In this document: positions 20,710 through 27,861 of the stretch, piece by piece
How the letters are laid out: every line of letters begins with the position of its first letter
Position numbering within the stretch: position 1 is the stretch's first letter
Source of the DNA: Candidatus Oscillibacter pullicola
Lineage (GTDB): Bacteria > Bacillota > Clostridia > Oscillospirales > Oscillospiraceae
Length of the DNA: 49,634 nucleotides
Reading direction: 5' to 3'
NCBI GenBank assembly: GCA_019118935.1
Contig: DWXY01000020.1
Location: 1 to 49,634, forward strand
Position numbers and translations under genes: made by a program
Notes under the pieces: model-generated
Told to the model about the DNA's origin: nothing
The model's input: the letters and a program-made list of their open reading frames with translations, nothing else
The model's database searches: none

Positions 20710-22218
20710 TCAGTTCAGCTCCAGGGACTCCAGCTGGGAGATGATCTCCTGCTGGCGCTCATAGAACAGCAGCTCCTGGTTGTGGGCGAAATAGGCGTCG
20801 CAGCCGTAGCGGCTGATGAAGGTGGCGGCGTAGTAGTTGATGGTCAGCTCCGTCACCAGGATCAGCAGCTCCTGCCCCTCCGGAAACACCTCCTCGCAGA
20901 AGGCGAAGAGGTTGTTCAGCCGCTCCCCGGCGGTCTTGGCCTGGGCCTTCAGATCCTGCACCATCTGGTCGAAGTCCGCCTTCACCGCGGCAAAGCCCGT
21001 CTGGCCGTCCGGGGCCTGCCCGGCCAGGGCCTTGTGCCGCTCCAGGGCGGCGATGATCCGGCGGTGGGAGCGCTCCGCCTCCTGGGAGAGGCTGCCGGAC
21101 CGCTTGCCGGTGTCGATGCGGGTCTTCTGCCGGCGCAGCTGCTCCTCCAGCAGGGCGGCGAGGTCCGCCTCCGGCGCGGCCAGGGCGGCTTTCACGCCCT
21201 TCAGGATGCCCAGCAGCTCCCGCAGCATCTCCTCCCGCTCCACCACGGCGCGCAGCTCGCCGGTGACGGCGTCCAGCAGCAATCCCAGCAGGGACAGCCG
21301 CTCGTCGAACTTGGCGGCGGCGGCCCGCTGGCGGATGGCCTTGGTGGCCTTGCCGGCGAGGATCTTGTCCACCTGGTAGTCGCTGCGGTACTTGTTGAAC
21401 AGGTCGTAGTAGACGGCGAACTCCTTGGCGATCTTGGGGTTCTGGAGGTACTGGATGATGAGCTTCTCGTCCACCGGCAGATGGTTCTGCTCGTACAGAT
21501 GGATCATCTGGCTCAGGTCGTCCCAGCCCCGGGCGGTGACGAACCGCTTGCCGTTCACCGTGGACTCCACCTTGTAGAAGTCGCCCTTCCGGATCTCCAG
21601 GTACGTCATCACCGCCGGGTGGACGTGCTTCTGGTAGGCGAACTCCTTCCAGGCGTCGAAGTCCGGCTCCACGTCGATGCGCTTGAGCCGGTCCCAGGTG
21701 ACGATGTCGAACTCCCGGACGGAGCGGTTGTACTCCGGCGGGTTGCCGGCGGTGACCACAATCCAGCCCTCCGGCACCCGGTGGCGGCCGAAGATCTTGT
21801 ATTGCAGGAATTGCAGCATGGAGGGAGCCAGGGTCTCGCTGACGCAGTTGATCTCGTCCAGGAAGAGGATGCCCTCCTTTTTGCCGGTGGCCTCCATGGT
21901 CTCGTACACGGAGGCGATGATCTCGCTCATGGTGTATTCGGAAACCTGGTACTCCCTGCCGTCAAAGACCTTCTTCTCGATGAAGGGCAGGCCCAGGGCA
22001 CTCTGCCGGGTGTGGTGGGTCATGGAGTAGGACACCAGGCACACATCCAGCTCCTGGGCGATCTGCTCCATGATGGCGGTCTTGCCGATGCCCGGAGGGC
22101 CCATCAGAAACACGGGCCGCTGCTTTTCCACCGGCACCGCGTAGTTGCCGAACTCATCCTTGGTGAAGTACGCCGTCATGGCGTTTTTGATCTGTTCCTT
22201 GGCCTCTTTGATGTTCAT
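20710..22218 (-). CDS. MoxR-type AAA+ ATPase
   Basis: The 502-residue protein has Walker A GPPGIGKT (40-47), Walker B GILFLDEIN (116-124), sensor 1 in VVTAGNPPEY and an extended C-terminal helical region (~280-502) absent from short MoxR proteins. MoxR ATPases act as chaperones that mature or remodel partners with VWA domains; the VWA partner is two genes upstream in the same operon. The C-terminal region is rich in charged coiled-coil sequence and probably binds the partners. Substrate unknown. The ribosome binding site (GAGGAAAG) is far from the ATG, so initiation may be weak. Confidence 0.85.
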   Translation of the reverse strand: MNIKEAKEQIKNAMTAYFTKDEFGNYAVPVEKQRPVFLMGPPGIGKTAIMEQIAQELDVCLVSYSMTHHTRQSALGLPFIEKKVFDGREYQVSEYTMSEIIASVYETMEATGKKEGILFLDEINCVSETLAPSMLQFLQYKIFGRHRVPEGWIVVTAGNPPEYNRSVREFDIVTWDRLKRIDVEPDFDAWKEFAYQKHVHPAVMTYLEIRKGDFYKVESTVNGKRFVTARGWDDLSQMIHLYEQNHLPVDEKLIIQYLQNPKIAKEFAVYYDLFNKYRSDYQVDKILAGKATKAIRQRAAAAKFDERLSLLGLLLDAVTGELRAVVEREEMLRELLGILKGVKAALAAPEADLAALLEEQLRRQKTRIDTGKRSGSLSQEAERSHRRIIAALERHKALAGQAPDGQTGFAAVKADFDQMVQDLKAQAKTAGERLNNLFAFCEEVFPEGQELLILVTELTINYYAATFISRYGCDAYFAHNQELLFYERQQEIISQLESLELN

Positions 22219-22255
22219 GGTTATTCAACCTGACTTTCCTCAGTATCGATATGGT

Positions 22256-23182
22256 TCAAAGCGCAAATTCCGCGTCCAGAAAATCCGTGTCCGCCCCAGC
22301 CGTCTCCCGGGGCCAGCGGCGGTTGCAGTAGTCCAGGAGAAAGGCGGTGGCCTCTGTCAGGCGGCTGCGCAGCAGCAGGTTCACCGCGGCCTGGTGGTTC
22401 TCCCGGTCCAGAAAGCCCAGGTCCGCCAGCTGCAGCAGCTGGCGGCGCAGGGCGTCGTTGTCCGTCAGGGCCAGGTTCTGGCGCAGATAGTCCAGATAGT
22501 GCTCCTTGGGCCGCATGTGCCGGAAGTCGTTGGTGCCGCCGTTGGTGTAGAACTCCTGATAGGAGTGCCCCCGCAGCAGGGCCAGCGCGTAGATCAGGCG
22601 CTCCTCGCCGGTGAAGCGGTTCTCCTGCCGGTAGCAGGCGGCGATCTCCGGATCGTACTGGTCTTCTCCCGGGGAGAGACCCATGTAGAAGGCGTATTCC
22701 AGCCGCTTCAGCTGGGCGTAGCCCTGGCACAGGAAGATATTCTCCCGGGAGGTGTCCTGCCGAACGGTGCCGTTGGCGGCCCGCTCGTCCAGGGCGGCCA
22801 TCAGAGAGTCCCAGTGGGCCAGGGCGTGAATGGGGCGCATGCGGGGGGCCGCAATGGCGGTCAGCGCCGGGGAGATGGGGCGGGCGCCGATGGCGTTGGT
22901 GGCCAGCCGGAAGAGAAAGGCCTCCTCATCGGCCAGCTTCTCCGACAGCCAGTCCAGGCTGTCCTGAAAGGCGAACACGTCCGCCGTGCCGCCGTATTCC
23001 ACGATCCGCAGGTTTTCAAAGCGGTTCAGGCCGTAAAAGGCCTCCACCTCCGGGGGGATCACCAGGACCTCCACGCCCCGCAGGGCGGGCACGGCTTTGG
23101 CACTGACCCGGGCCACCGGGCCGGCGGGCTCCGCCACGGCCCGGCTGCCGTCGACCCGCAGACATTCCACTTGTGTTTCCAT
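22256..23182 (-). CDS. Unknown protein of the MoxR/VWA operon with LRR-like N-terminus
   Basis: The 308-residue protein is not recognised. Residues ~29-65 (VPALRGVEVLVIPPEVEAF, then FENLRIVEYGG) resemble one or two BspA-type leucine-rich repeats. The rest (~75-308) looks helical, with RLATNAIGARPISPALTAI and two YxxYLRQN/HYLDYLRQN-like stretches. No signal peptide or membrane segment. It is sandwiched 3 bp after the VWA gene and 37 bp before the MoxR gene, so it probably serves as an adaptor or substrate of that pair (inference). Confidence 0.6.
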   Translation of the reverse strand: METQVECLRVDGSRAVAEPAGPVARVSAKAVPALRGVEVLVIPPEVEAFYGLNRFENLRIVEYGGTADVFAFQDSLDWLSEKLADEEAFLFRLATNAIGARPISPALTAIAAPRMRPIHALAHWDSLMAALDERAANGTVRQDTSRENIFLCQGYAQLKRLEYAFYMGLSPGEDQYDPEIAACYRQENRFTGEERLIYALALLRGHSYQEFYTNGGTNDFRHMRPKEHYLDYLRQNLALTDNDALRRQLLQLADLGFLDRENHQAAVNLLLRSRLTEATAFLLDYCNRRWPRETAGADTDFLDAEFAL

Positions 23183-23185
23183 GGC

Positions 23186-24604
23186 TCAGATCTCCTCGCT
23201 CTGCAATACCAGCTTGATGGCCCACACCGGCACGTCCGGCGGATCGTACCCGTCGTCCAGAAAGACGAAGGCCGCGTCGTAGTCCGGCTTTTTCTCCGGG
23301 AAGATGCCCCGGCCGTCGGTGAAGTAGATCATGCCCTTGAGGTTGGTGAACTCTCCGGCCCGGACCAGCTCGTCCACATACTGGAACACCGGGCGGAAGT
23401 CCGTGCCGCCGAAGCCGTGGAGCTGCATGGTGTCCAGATAGTTGTCGAAGTCCTTCTGGCTGGTGATCTTCCGGTCCTCCTGCACCTCCGCGTCGCACTG
23501 GATGATGTGGAGGTTGATCTTGGTGAAGAAGTTCTCCTGCTGGCGCAGGATGTTGTAGGTCTTGGTGACGAACCGCTGCACCAGATCGCCGCTGACGGAG
23601 CCGGAGGTGTCGATGGCGATGACGAATTCCTTGATTCGCCGAACCTCCTTGTACTCCAGCGGCTCCACCAAGGGCATGTTGCCGTACAGGGACAGGCCGT
23701 AGGTGTAGTAGATATAGTCGAACTCGTCCTGATTCACCTGGGTGACCTCGCCCAGGCTCATATAGCGGCGGAGAAAGTCGGCGTAGTCATACGTCTCCCG
23801 GTTCACCGCCTTCAGCTCCTGGACCAGATTGCCGGCGTCGGTGCCGTGGCGGCGGGAGATGGTCTCCAGGTCCACCTGGAGCCGCTCACTGATCTCCTTC
23901 CAGGTCTGCTCCAGGTCCCGCTTCTGCCGTTCCGTGCCGGACTTGGGCGTCTTGGCCCGGCTGCCCTGGCCGCCCCGGCCGGACTTCTGCTTGCCCGGAG
24001 TGCCGGCCTCCGGCGTCCGGCCGGTGGACTGGCCGCCGCCTCCGGCGCCCTGGCCGCTCTTCACTGGCAGGTACCAGGCCCGGTGATCGTCCGCCAGGAA
24101 GGGTTCCCGCAGCCGGGCCATCTGGTCGTCGGAGAGCTGCCGGTCCAGAAAGTACCGGTAGAGCTTCTCCGCCGTCAGGGGCCTGACCTGGGCCCGGAGC
24201 TCCTTCAGCGTCTCCTCCTGGGCATAGGCCCGGTTACAGGCGGCGCTCTCCAGGTGGAGGTCCACGATGGCGCTCTCCACCGCGATGTCACAGGCCAGGT
24301 CCCAGCACCGCCGGTTGATGTTGGCGCTGGTGAACAGATGGCGGAACACGCAGTGGAGCACGATGTGCAGGTAGTCCCGCACGTTCCGGCCCCGCTCCTG
24401 CTTGTACATGGACAGGACGTAGTACGTGTCGTAAAACAGGTGCTGGCCGTCCGTGGCCAGGGTGCCGGGGTAGGAGGTCAGCTGGAACTGGCTGAGGGCC
24501 AGATCCAGAAACCGCAGGTTCACCAGCAGGGTGTTCCGGGTCAGGCGCAGGATATTCTGGGCCAGGGCGTCCGCCTGGCGGAATTTTTCCACATGATCTT
24601 CCAT
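23186..24604 (-). CDS. DUF2201-type putative metallopeptidase/VWA domain protein
   Basis: The 472-residue protein has an N-terminal metallopeptidase-like domain with H80-x3-H84 (LHIVLHCVFRH) and the family motif WDLACDIAVES, a low-complexity Gly/Lys/Ser linker (~182-228), and a C-terminal VWA-like domain with MIDAS DTSGS (332-336) and a GGTDFRPVF loop. DUF2201 proteins are usually encoded beside MoxR ATPases, as here. ATG 24604 has GAAGAG 8 bp upstream; GTG 24610 is too close. First gene of the minus-strand operon with its own promoter. Role unknown; a metal-dependent effector matured by the AAA+ ATPase is the usual hypothesis. Confidence 0.82.
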   Translation of the reverse strand: MEDHVEKFRQADALAQNILRLTRNTLLVNLRFLDLALSQFQLTSYPGTLATDGQHLFYDTYYVLSMYKQERGRNVRDYLHIVLHCVFRHLFTSANINRRCWDLACDIAVESAIVDLHLESAACNRAYAQEETLKELRAQVRPLTAEKLYRYFLDRQLSDDQMARLREPFLADDHRAWYLPVKSGQGAGGGGQSTGRTPEAGTPGKQKSGRGGQGSRAKTPKSGTERQKRDLEQTWKEISERLQVDLETISRRHGTDAGNLVQELKAVNRETYDYADFLRRYMSLGEVTQVNQDEFDYIYYTYGLSLYGNMPLVEPLEYKEVRRIKEFVIAIDTSGSVSGDLVQRFVTKTYNILRQQENFFTKINLHIIQCDAEVQEDRKITSQKDFDNYLDTMQLHGFGGTDFRPVFQYVDELVRAGEFTNLKGMIYFTDGRGIFPEKKPDYDAAFVFLDDGYDPPDVPVWAIKLVLQSEEI

Positions 24605-24655
24605 AAGCACAACTCTTCCCGAAAGGGCGCCGTGCGCCCGATGTTCTGACCCTTT

Positions 24656-24769: not shown

Positions 24770-27442
24770 ATGAGAAAGCTGGTCGTTGGAATATTGGCCC
24801 ATGTGGACGCGGGGAAGACTACCCTGTCGGAGGCGCTGCTGTATCAGAGCGGCGCCCTGCGGCGTCTGGGCCGGGTGGACCACCAGGACGCCTTTCTGGA
24901 CACGGACGCCATGGAGCGGGAGCGGGGCATCACCATCTTCTCCAAGCAGGCGGTGTTTTCCCTGGCGGACACGGAGATCACCCTGCTGGACACGCCGGGC
25001 CATGTGGACTTCTCCGCCGAGGCGGAGCGGACGCTGCAGGTGCTGGACTGCGCCATTCTGGTGATCAGCGGCACCGACGGGGTCCAGGCCCACACCCGCA
25101 CCCTCTGGCGGCTGCTGGAGCGGTATCACGTCCCCACCTTCCTCTTTATCAATAAAATGGACCTGGCGGGGGCAGACCGGGCCGCGGTTCTGGCAGGCTT
25201 AAAGCAGCATCTGGGCAGCGGCTGCGTGGATTTCAGCGGCGAACGGGACGAATCGTTCCGGGAGGAGGCCGCCGTCTGCGACGAGGCGGTGCTGGAGCGG
25301 TATCTGGAGACCGGAGCCCTGACAGACGGCGACCTGCGGCAGATGATCGGGAAGCGGAAGCTGTTTCCCTGTTGGTTCGGCTCCGCGCTGAAGCTGGAGG
25401 GGGTCTCGGAATTCCTGGAGGGGTTGGAGCAGTACGCCCCGGTTCCCGCCTATCCGGAGGAGTTCGGTGCCCGCATCTTCAAGATCGCCCGGGACAGCCA
25501 GGGCGCCCGCCTTACCTATTTAAAGGTGACAGGCGGCACCCTGCGGGTGAAGAGCCTTTTGACCAACCGCCGTCCCGGCCTGGGAGAGGACCAGGTGTGG
25601 GAGGAGAAGGCGGATCAAATCCGCATCTACTCCGGCGCCAAGTTCCGCACCGTGGAGGAGGCCCCGGCGGGGACGGTGTGCGCCGTGACGGGCCTCTCCC
25701 GCAGCCGGGCGGGGGAGGGCTTAGGGCTTGAGACCGGCTGGACCGCCCCGGCGCTGGAACCGGTGCTGACCTATCAGGTGCTGCTGCCGGAGGGGACGGA
25801 TCCCCACACCGCCCTGGGCAATCTGCGTCAGCTGGAAGAGGAGGACCCCCAGCTCCACATCGCCTGGAACGAACAAGCCCGGCAGATCCACGTGCAGCTG
25901 ATGGGGGAGATCCAGCTGGAGATCCTCCAGCGGATGCTCCGGGAGCGGTTCGGCCTGGAGGTGGCCTTCGGCCCCGGCGCCATCTGCTACCGGGAGACCA
26001 TCGCCGCCCCGGTGGAGGGCATCGGCCACTTTGAGCCCCTCCGCCACTACGCGGAGGTCCACCTGCTGCTGGAGCCGGGCGAGCGGGGCAGTGGATTGGT
26101 GTTCGCCGCCGCCTGCCCGGAGGACCAGCTGGAGGGCCGCTGGCAGCGGTTGGTGCTGACCCACTTAGCGGAGAAGGAGCATCTGGGGGTGCTGACCGGC
26201 TCTCCCATCACGGACATGAAGATCACCCTGGTGGCGGGCCGGGCCCATGTGAAGCACACGGAGGGCGGCGACTTCCGCCAGGCCACCTATCGGGCGGTGC
26301 GCCAGGGGCTGATGGAGGCGGAGAGCGTCCTGCTGGAGCCCTGGTACGACTTCCGGCTGGAGCTGCCCGCGCCCCAGGTGGGCCGGGCCATGACGGACCT
26401 CCAGCAGATGGGCGCCCAGCTGAACCCGCCGGAGACGGTGGGGGAGGAATCGGTGCTCACCGGATCCGTGGCGGTGTCCGCCCTGGGGGATTACGCCCGG
26501 GAGGTGGCCGCCTACACCCAGGGCCGGGGGCGGCTGAGCTGTTCTCTCCGGGGCTACGAGCCCTGCCCGGATCAGGAGGCGGTGCTGGCGGACATCGACT
26601 ACGACCCCACAGCGGACCTGGACAACTCCCCGGACTCCGTGTTCTGCAGCCACGGCGCGGGCGTCATCGTCCCCTGGGACGAAGTGCCCGCCCGGGCTCA
26701 CGTGTCCAGCGGCCTGGACCTGGGACCGGAGAAAGAGGAGCCGGCGGAGGGTCCTGACACCCGGCGGGCCTCCGCCTACGCCGGCACCATCGAGCAGGAC
26801 AAGGAGCTCCAGGCCATCTTCGAGCGGACCTACGGCCCTGTCAAGAGGCGGGCGTTCCTCCCGCCCAAGGAGCCCCGGCGGCCCGCTCCGGCAGAGACGG
26901 AGCGGGAGAAGCGGGCCATCCGGGAGCAGTTCTCCGGCCCGGAGTACCTGCTGGTGGACGGCTACAACATCATTTTCGCCTGGGACGAGCTGAAGGCCAT
27001 CGCCCGGGACAACCTGGACGCGGCCCGCAAGCAGCTGTGCGACATCCTCAGCAACTACCGGGGCTTCCGGAAGTGCGAGGTCATCGCCGTGTTTGACGCC
27101 TACAAGGTGAAGGGCGGCCAGGGCAGCGTGGAGAAGTACCACAACATCCACGTGGTCTACACCAAGGAGGCGGAGACAGCGGACGCCTATATCGAGCGGG
27201 CCACTTATGAGATCGGCCGCCACCACCGGGTGCGGGTGGCCACCTCCGACGGGCCGGAGCAGCTGATCATTCTGGGCCATGGGGCCCTGCGGCTGTCTGC
27301 CAGCGCCTTCCGGCAGGAGGTGGAGCAGGTGGAGGGTCAGATCGCCGACATCCTGGCCGCCAACAACCACCTGAAAAAGACGGGCAACGTCCGCTCCGCC
27401 CTGGAGCGGGCCCGGAGACAGACAGAGGAGGAACAGCCATGA
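24770..27442 (+). CDS. TetM-like translational GTPase fused to a YacP/Rae1-type NYN endoribonuclease
   Basis: The 890-residue protein starts with a complete EF-G/TetM-type G domain: G1 AHVDAGKTT (10-18), G2 RGITI, G3 DTPGHVDF, G4 NKMD. Domains II-V of the ribosomal-protection type follow to ~residue 660. After a charged linker (~660-724, including EQDKELQAIFERTYGPVKRR) comes an NYN/PIN-like nuclease domain (~725-880) with YLLVDGYNII, FDAYKVKGG, EAETADAYIE and VATSDGPEQ, matching YacP. In Bacillus YacP is Rae1, which cuts mRNA in the ribosomal A site. ATG 24770 is supported by the conserved N-terminus. Overlaps the next gene by ATGA. Tetracycline resistance is not implied. Confidence 0.88.
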   Translation: MRKLVVGILAHVDAGKTTLSEALLYQSGALRRLGRVDHQDAFLDTDAMERERGITIFSKQAVFSLADTEITLLDTPGHVDFSAEAERTLQVLDCAILVISGTDGVQAHTRTLWRLLERYHVPTFLFINKMDLAGADRAAVLAGLKQHLGSGCVDFSGERDESFREEAAVCDEAVLERYLETGALTDGDLRQMIGKRKLFPCWFGSALKLEGVSEFLEGLEQYAPVPAYPEEFGARIFKIARDSQGARLTYLKVTGGTLRVKSLLTNRRPGLGEDQVWEEKADQIRIYSGAKFRTVEEAPAGTVCAVTGLSRSRAGEGLGLETGWTAPALEPVLTYQVLLPEGTDPHTALGNLRQLEEEDPQLHIAWNEQARQIHVQLMGEIQLEILQRMLRERFGLEVAFGPGAICYRETIAAPVEGIGHFEPLRHYAEVHLLLEPGERGSGLVFAAACPEDQLEGRWQRLVLTHLAEKEHLGVLTGSPITDMKITLVAGRAHVKHTEGGDFRQATYRAVRQGLMEAESVLLEPWYDFRLELPAPQVGRAMTDLQQMGAQLNPPETVGEESVLTGSVAVSALGDYAREVAAYTQGRGRLSCSLRGYEPCPDQEAVLADIDYDPTADLDNSPDSVFCSHGAGVIVPWDEVPARAHVSSGLDLGPEKEEPAEGPDTRRASAYAGTIEQDKELQAIFERTYGPVKRRAFLPPKEPRRPAPAETEREKRAIREQFSGPEYLLVDGYNIIFAWDELKAIARDNLDAARKQLCDILSNYRGFRKCEVIAVFDAYKVKGGQGSVEKYHNIHVVYTKEAETADAYIERATYEIGRHHRVRVATSDGPEQLIILGHGALRLSASAFRQEVEQVEGQIADILAANNHLKKTGNVRSALERARRQTEEEQP

Positions 27443-27861
27443 TCGGATTGAGCGGCGCGGCAGGCGCGGTGCTGGCCCTCTGCGGCCAGGTCCGCTCCGC
27501 CCTGGAGCGCAAGGGTCTGCCCCGGAGAGAACTGGCCGGCGGCCGGGTGCGGATCGAGCCCCGGTACAACCAGGGCTCCGGCTTCGGCCTTGTCCCGCTG
27601 AACGGACGGCAGATGGCCCCCCTTTCTCTGGCGGCGCTGTGGGCGCTGCTGGGGATGTGCGGCGGCCGGGGCCTGGGGACCGGACTGCTGCTGGGCGGCG
27701 GGCTCAGCAACCTGTGGGAGCGGGTCCGCCATGGCCGGGTCCTGGACTACCTGCGCTTTCCAAAGGCGCCGGGGCCGCTGAAGAAATACACCTACAATCT
27801 GGCGGACCTGGCCATCCTCCTGGGCGCGGTGCTGCTGGTCCTGCGGCCCAGGAGGCGGTGA
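27439..27861 (+). CDS. Minimal signal peptidase II (LspA)-like protein
   Basis: The 140-residue protein retains LspA signature motifs: N44-QGSGFGL, N91-LWERVRHGRVLD103, and N120-LAD123, so both catalytic aspartates appear present. It has fewer or shorter membrane helices than the usual ~150-170-residue enzyme, and the N-terminal portion diverges. LspA removes signal peptides from prolipoproteins. It overlaps the GTPase-nuclease gene by 4 bp (ATGA), an unexpected partnership. Whether it is the housekeeping LspA or a second specialised copy cannot be told from this window. Confidence 0.75.
   Translation: MIGLSGAAGAVLALCGQVRSALERKGLPRRELAGGRVRIEPRYNQGSGFGLVPLNGRQMAPLSLAALWALLGMCGGRGLGTGLLLGGGLSNLWERVRHGRVLDYLRFPKAPGPLKKYTYNLADLAILLGAVLLVLRPRRR

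Follow-up and report, generated by a model that had tools for sequence, protein, structure and literature searches.

A translational GTPase fused to a Rae1-type nuclease domain in Candidatus Oscillibacter pullicola and other Clostridia: a candidate ribosome-directed mRNA endonuclease

What might be the task of a protein that joins a translational GTPase, similar in layout to the tetracycline ribosomal protection proteins, to a nuclease domain of the YacP/Rae1 type? This question is raised by a gene of Candidatus Oscillibacter pullicola, a member of the Clostridia, in contig DWXY01000020.1 (assembly GCA_019118935.1), of which we analysed positions 1 to 49,634 (the window, 49,634 nucleotides). 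Here a single frame of 890 amino acids spans positions 24770-27442 of the forward strand, with the GTPase in its first part and the nuclease domain at its end. With moderate confidence we read it as a GTPase-tethered Rae1: an mRNA endonuclease directed to the ribosome, which took the place of Rae1 itself. A preliminary description of the gene had called the combination uncharacterised, which holds for experiments in the open-licence literature but not for the fusion as such, because Atkinson 2015 described Tet-YacP fusions of Clostridiales in ten species and suggested an RNase-based mechanism of resistance (PMC4342817).

The fused gene and its nuclease domain

The end of the protein is a YacP/Rae1-type NYN domain by both sequence and fold. 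It scored 169.1 bits with the Pfam model NYN_YacP (curated cut-off 24.6) and matched Bacillus subtilis Rae1/YacP in the PDB (5mq8, 5mq9) by sequence with an E-value of 1e-24. The AlphaFold2 model of the NYN half alone had a predicted local distance difference test score (pLDDT) of 89.8, and when this model was searched with Foldseek the Rae1 chains of 5mq8/5mq9 were the only three matches below E 0.001 (E 6.7e-11). The preliminary description had made the same identification, and had asked for the catalytic Asp cluster to be checked in an alignment. Actually, D730, D776, D805 and E809 were kept in all the 116 fused sequences aligned and D827 in 115 of them; the same acidic positions were kept in 34/34 stand-alone NYN sequences, and Rae1 has the same letters there. 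A degenerate NYN domain is ruled out by these intact residues. Regarding the samples, two pairs of the fused sequences share the same last 300 residues, which leaves 114 distinct ones, and the stand-alone rows were reduced from 41 to 34 by removing those identical over 100 residues, some of them being one locus fetched twice; the filter also left out L224, L227 and L233. According to published work, Rae1 cuts mRNA in the A site of the ribosome (PMC6613710, PMC12320835, PMC10100781).

The GTPase is intact, as had been proposed: among the 116 fused rows AHVDxGKTT was present in 115, DTPGH in 116 and NKxD in 111. The Foldseek matches listed for the full-length model were EF-G-type factors, the best listed target reaching a template modelling score (TM-score) of 0.76 (6n0i), with identities of 22-28%. 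Between the two halves, the preliminary description had placed a linker of about 65 residues. A linker is indeed present; however, what lies there is a conserved element at residues 611-644, common to the aligned unfused relatives and absent from the aligned Tet-type rows, and then a linker of around 80 residues. In the fused family the linker length had a median of 78 residues and a range of 68-115 (measured in 107 of the 116 sequences).

The two parts were in one frame at 75 of the 80 loci from named genomes, and therefore a frameshift or an assembly error joining two genes, the objection raised with the first description, is ruled out. As for the other five loci, three start at a contig end (L121, L147, L165), in L135 the frame is without its first ~78 residues and L151 is split into two frames.

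Distribution, origin and surroundings of the fusion

An NYN_YacP match was found in 249 of the 391 genomes of the source class (Clostridia). In the 196 fully listed genomes of this class we called an NYN frame fused when it was longer than 217 amino acids and stand-alone when it had 168-217. On this basis, 70 genomes carried the fused form, 58 the stand-alone form only, 68 neither and none both, where around 21 genomes with both would be expected under independence (70 x 58 / 196). This bears out the earlier idea that genomes with the fusion lack a separate yacP. Since a cell with the fusion hardly ever has another NYN_YacP, the pattern suggests that the fused nuclease does the job of Rae1 and not a side job. 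Specifically, 65 of the 70 fused frames measured 847-937 amino acids and the other five, cut or broken, 313-789, and the GTPase model also matched in all the 70 genomes with a long NYN frame. Among the matches listed and compared, six families hold both forms and G330 is the only genome that does so; the second NYN matches of genomes G201 and G242 were not among the matches listed, and that of G136 was a fragment of 49 positions below the cut-off. Genome G133 carries two fused copies. One of the 68 genomes with neither form (G131) has a GTPase match of 924 bits that is cut at a contig end, and this may be a broken-off fusion.

The phylum sample of 299 genomes was searched with the GTPase only, so that "fused" there means frame length; the match lay in a frame of fused size in 18 genomes and of unfused size in 2. 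The named carriers of the fusion include Oscillibacter, Anaerotruncus, Ruminococcus, Faecalibacterium, Gemmiger, Monoglobus, Herbinix and Agathobacter, and the nearest named genome is that of Candidatus Oscillibacter excrementavium (95% across the part used as query). Nearly full-length fused homologues were also seen in two unannotated records of 'Bacteriophage sp.' from human stool, MT835563.1 and MT835514.1 (60% and 49% identity respectively), which are possibly bacterial DNA filed as phage.

Regarding the origin of the fusion, the stand-alone NYN gene was directly behind rlmB, at a distance of at most 77 bases, in 15 of the 19 chosen loci; in L219, L225 and L226 it was not, and L218 lies too close to the end of its contig to tell. 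This is the arrangement of the yacO/rae1 operon of B. subtilis (PMC6613710). In the source genome the frame behind rlmB is a non-NYN gene, and a search of that genome found no second NYN_YacP. The GTPase tree had 58 rows, specifically 35 of the 116 fused ones, 11 unfused ones and 12 of the Tet type (from 16 loci, after identical ones were dropped). It was midpoint-rooted, with no outgroup because no EF-G row was found. All the 35 fused rows fell on one side of one branch (support of 100 in the Shimodaira-Hasegawa-like approximate likelihood ratio test, SH-aLRT), the 11 unfused rows of ~650 residues were placed beside this clade and the Tet-type rows far away. The fused clade covers more than a dozen families. 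The NYN tree, which took in 43 of the 116 fused rows, needs only three changes between the two forms, with weak support for the deep forks. Inside the fused clade (supports 85-91) it placed the stand-alone NYN gene of genome G243 (L219, 4787-5308), which lies away from rlmB and is likely the result of a secondary loss of the GTPase half; no GTPase relic was found beside it by tblastn (best E 0.13). The stand-alone NYN of genome G160, which is beside rlmB, was placed with the fused clade too (supports 85-91). In the simplest history, an rlmB-linked Rae1 gene was fused once to this GTPase; the old gene was then lost, and at least once a separate nuclease arose again later. As part of the best explanation taken as a whole, it is rather probable that the fused protein, as a rule the only NYN_YacP of its cell, took over from the separate rlmB-linked nuclease gene.

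A whole unfused GTPase was found in 9 of the 196 genomes, 4 of them with a stand-alone NYN and 5 without. Genome G121 has two unfused GTPase copies (L081 and L088) and a stand-alone NYN_YacP gene. Outside the class, a homologue of the GTPase half without NYN lies on the megaplasmid pMP118 of Ligilactobacillus salivarius UCC118 (L245, 3529-5920), beside rpsN (ribosomal protein S14), and the record names it tetracycline resistance protein.

The features of the locus are collected in Table 1. No neighbour was conserved across the class: the commonest neighbour cluster occurred at 13 of the 116 loci and signal peptidase II at 9 (the flanks were of differing length), and therefore the fused gene looks more like a core gene than a mobile resistance gene. 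A search for a conserved operon partner that could hint at the function gave none among the 116 loci. Upstream of the gene, letters similar to those of the possible promoter were seen by eye in L089 and L096, and the consensus scan did not report it. The tetM gene is preceded by an attenuator; before the fused gene the same scan showed nothing convincing of this kind.

Table 1. Features of the fused gene and its surroundings (window coordinates)
Feature	Position	Strand	Basis
Fused gene, EF-G/Tet-type translational GTPase and YacP/Rae1 NYN endoribonuclease, 890 amino acids	24770..27442	+	translation, Pfam, PDB match, AlphaFold2
G domain, GTP_EFTU, residues 4-224, E 1.1e-50; AHVDAGKTT, DTPGH (H78), NKMD	24779..25441	+	Pfam
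Domain II, EF-G_D2, residues 232-316	25463..25717	+	Pfam
Domain III, EFG_III, residues 331-401	25760..25972	+	Pfam
Domain IV, EFG_IV, residues 404-517; best-conserved domain of the fused family	25979..26320	+	Pfam, alignment
Domain IV loop 3, HVKHTEGGDFR, residues 493-503; in the place of the TetM loop that contains SPVST	26246..26278	+	alignment
Domain V, EFG_C, residues 520-602	26327..26575	+	Pfam
C-terminal GTPase element, residues 611-644, consensus SVFC..G..V.W..V...MH	26600..26701	+	alignment
Linker, residues 646-724; pLDDT <50 at 654-672 and 693-719	26705..26941	+	AlphaFold2, alignment
Short predicted helix inside the linker, residues 674-688; loose motif form in 80/116 fused sequences	26789..26833	+	model, alignment
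NYN_YacP (Rae1-type) nuclease domain, residues 727-879, E 1.1e-49; acids D730, D776, D805, E809, D827	26948..27406	+	Pfam, PDB match, alignment, fold
Possible promoter, TTGCGC - 17 bases - TATGAT, ends 34 bases before the start codon	24707..24735	+	by eye
Signal peptidase II gene, LspA-type, Peptidase_A8; shares four bases with the end of the fused gene, stop codon included	27439-27861	+	Pfam
Divergent cluster next to the fused gene: MoxR-type AAA ATPase, 308-amino-acid protein without Pfam match, DUF2201 VWA/metallopeptidase-like protein	20710-24610	-	Pfam

Relation to the tetracycline proteins and rival explanations

In TetM, the tip of domain IV loop 3 touches tetracycline through Pro509, with Ser508 and Val510 on either side (PMC7456112, PMC8161019). 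The motif SPVST of this loop was present in 10 of the 12 Tet-type rows and in none of the 116 fused or the 11 unfused rows. Conversely, a loop HxKHTxGGDFR was present in 113 of the 116 fused rows, in 11/11 unfused ones and in 0/12 of the Tet type. Nine of the Tet-type rows were over the cut-off of the Tet(M/W) model, and L207, L208 and L209 were below it; those nine and L207 are the rows with SPVST. In the place of loop 3, L208 (genome G147) has DHVMHSNPGDF and L209 (genome G049) has YHVVHTKAPDF, both of the pattern H..H....DF. The divide between the loops is therefore not sharp among distant members, as these two are intermediate. It is worth taking into account that some distant otr(A)-like genes improved the growth of E. 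coli in tetracycline (PMC7725328).

That the gene encodes a tetracycline ribosomal protection protein which gained an RNase, so that resistance would come partly from RNA cleavage, was already proposed in print (Atkinson 2015, PMC4342817). The five-domain layout is the same as in TetM/TetO, the PDB matches include both TetO and TetM, tet_protect is the best NCBIfam match listed, and the TetM/TetW/TetO/TetS family name is given in the records to the fused homologue of Agathobacter rectalis and to the unfused homologues of Ligilactobacillus salivarius (the homologue of Monoglobus is recorded as translation factor GTPase family protein). Nevertheless, among the matches listed (25 of 40 families) every Tet model stayed below its cut-off, specifically tet_protect with 400 bits of 775, OtrA with 337 of 900, TetM/W with 253 of 1100, TetQ with 241 of 1425 and TetM with 214 of 1420. 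The identity of the fused domain IV to the 12 Tet-type rows of the class had a mean of 28%, the SPVST loop is absent as said, and the gene context is not conserved. Furthermore, a Tet(M/W) gene over the cut-off was found in 10 of the 196 genomes, and 4 of these 10 carry the fusion as well. Thus, judged by its sequence, the fused protein is probably not a tetracycline-resistance protein, the label TetM-like given to it earlier is not supported in a functional sense, and we regard a resistance protein with an added RNase as unlikely.

The nuclease might act on rRNA or tRNA precursors, in maturation or in the decay of defective subunits, instead of mRNA, the whole protein still being a ribosome-linked factor. 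A role for the domain in the maturation of rRNA and tRNA was proposed (Anantharaman and Aravind 2006, cited in PMC4342817), and the stand-alone genes adjoin rlmB, which is homologous to a 23S rRNA methyltransferase; however, for Rae1, the member that has been characterised, the substrate is mRNA in the A site, and the acids of Rae1 are intact in the fused domain. We hold this reading the least likely of the three rivals. The halves might also work independently: the GTPase would then serve as a reserve or stress factor, and being fused would do no more than couple expression or location. The whole GTPases without NYN, both in the class and in L. salivarius, are in agreement with this, and so is the NYN gene of G243, whose standing alone inside the fused clade means that the halves can separate. 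On the other hand, a single fused clade across more than a dozen families, a linker kept within 68-115 residues and the exclusivity with stand-alone NYN argue against independent halves, and we consider them quite unlikely.

Several points weigh against a GTPase-tethered Rae1 as well. In the unfused rows and in those of the Tet type, domain IV was likewise more conserved than the G domain, and so this is not special to the fused family. Fused and stand-alone forms cluster by family, and therefore their exclusivity is partly phylogenetic, and the 68 genomes of the 196 with neither form imply that the activity is dispensable in many Clostridia. No association was found between unfused GTPase and stand-alone NYN in the 196 genomes (Fisher p = 1.0), and since the GTPase exists alone it has a function independent of the nuclease. 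The predicted full-length structure (50 sequences, pLDDT 81.2, predicted template modelling score (pTM) 0.59) leaves the NYN domain unfixed against the GTPase, because of this pTM and of the parts of the linker with pLDDT below 50. In the open-licence literature, outside which the main Rae1 papers lie, we found no experimental study of the fusion. Finally, domain IV and the Rae1 domain would compete for a single A site. An EF-G-type translational GTPase puts its domain IV in the A site, and the domain IV of TetM is likewise placed there (PMC7456112).

Proposed action and comparison with known systems

Ribosome binding, control by GTP, mRNA cutting, sensing of stalls and the choice of target ribosomes are what we infer for the fused protein. 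Its EF-G-like half would bind the factor site of the ribosome, domain IV reaching the decoding centre, and its NYN half, kept near by the flexible linker, would cut the mRNA on that ribosome. The preliminary description had the GTPase sense a stalled or drug-blocked ribosome and the nuclease cut, which is not supported as stated: the A site is the place of domain IV and of Rae1 alike, and sensing followed by cutting would need a hand-over. As both cannot fill one A site, either the GTPase would leave first or the nuclease would act elsewhere. In the most likely order, the GTPase with GTP would bind a ribosome with a free or blocked A site; GTP would then be hydrolysed, domain IV would leave, and the tethered NYN domain would enter the A site and cut. 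Alternatively, domain IV would stay and the NYN domain may cut the mRNA just outside the A site, or else on an adjacent ribosome. In a more specific proposal, the protein would be a GTP-gated A-site endonuclease whose HxKHTxGGDFR tip would detect ribosomes that are stalled or blocked by a drug and which would then give up the A site to the Rae1 domain of the same protein, for cutting of the mRNA; this we put forward tentatively, with more doubt than trust.

If the protein is a GTPase-tethered Rae1, then in many Clostridia, 70 of the 196 genomes examined in the class, mRNA on the ribosome is cut by a nuclease tied to a translational GTPase, and we know of no tested example of a nuclease physically tied in this way. 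The fusion would then help to understand how nucleases of the Rae1 type get to their ribosomes. If the GTP-gated version were true, it would be a one-protein switch for ribosome rescue and mRNA decay that replaced Rae1 in much of the gut Clostridia. Besides, counts of resistance genes in gut bacteria that are based on annotation may be too high: records give Tet names to one fused protein and to several unfused relatives, although the drug-contacting loop is absent from the fused and unfused rows examined.

Among known systems, TetM, TetO and TetW share with the fused protein the domain order G-II-III-IV-V and the G motifs, whereas the fused protein lacks the SPVST loop and the PPNPFW stretch of domain IV and has another C-terminal element and the extra NYN domain. 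EF-G and EF-G2 gave the best fold matches of the full model, and only 22-28% identity in the listed matches. Closer to it, the unfused GTPase of ~650 amino acids in Clostridia is a sister group with the HxKHTxGGDFR loop and the SVFC...MH end; it differs in that it stops at the C-terminal element, without linker and NYN. The unfused copies of L. salivarius were seen as tblastn hits of ~50% identity. Rae1/YacP of B. subtilis resembles the fused NYN domain in sequence, fold and acidic positions, and the stand-alone relatives in Clostridia stand behind rlmB as in B. subtilis; however, it is a separate protein (a chain of 181 residues) with no GTPase. The same architecture, a Tet-like EF2-family GTPase with a YacP-like NYN, is that of the Tet-YacP fusions of Atkinson 2015, of which the protein studied here is a further member by the described architecture. 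The passages of that paper cited here keep the resistance reading and make no mention of Rae1. Within the open-licence literature, what our analysis adds to those passages is the replacement of Rae1 and the exclusivity of the two forms, the single clade and its origin, the sister family without the fusion, and the lack of the loop that contacts tetracycline.

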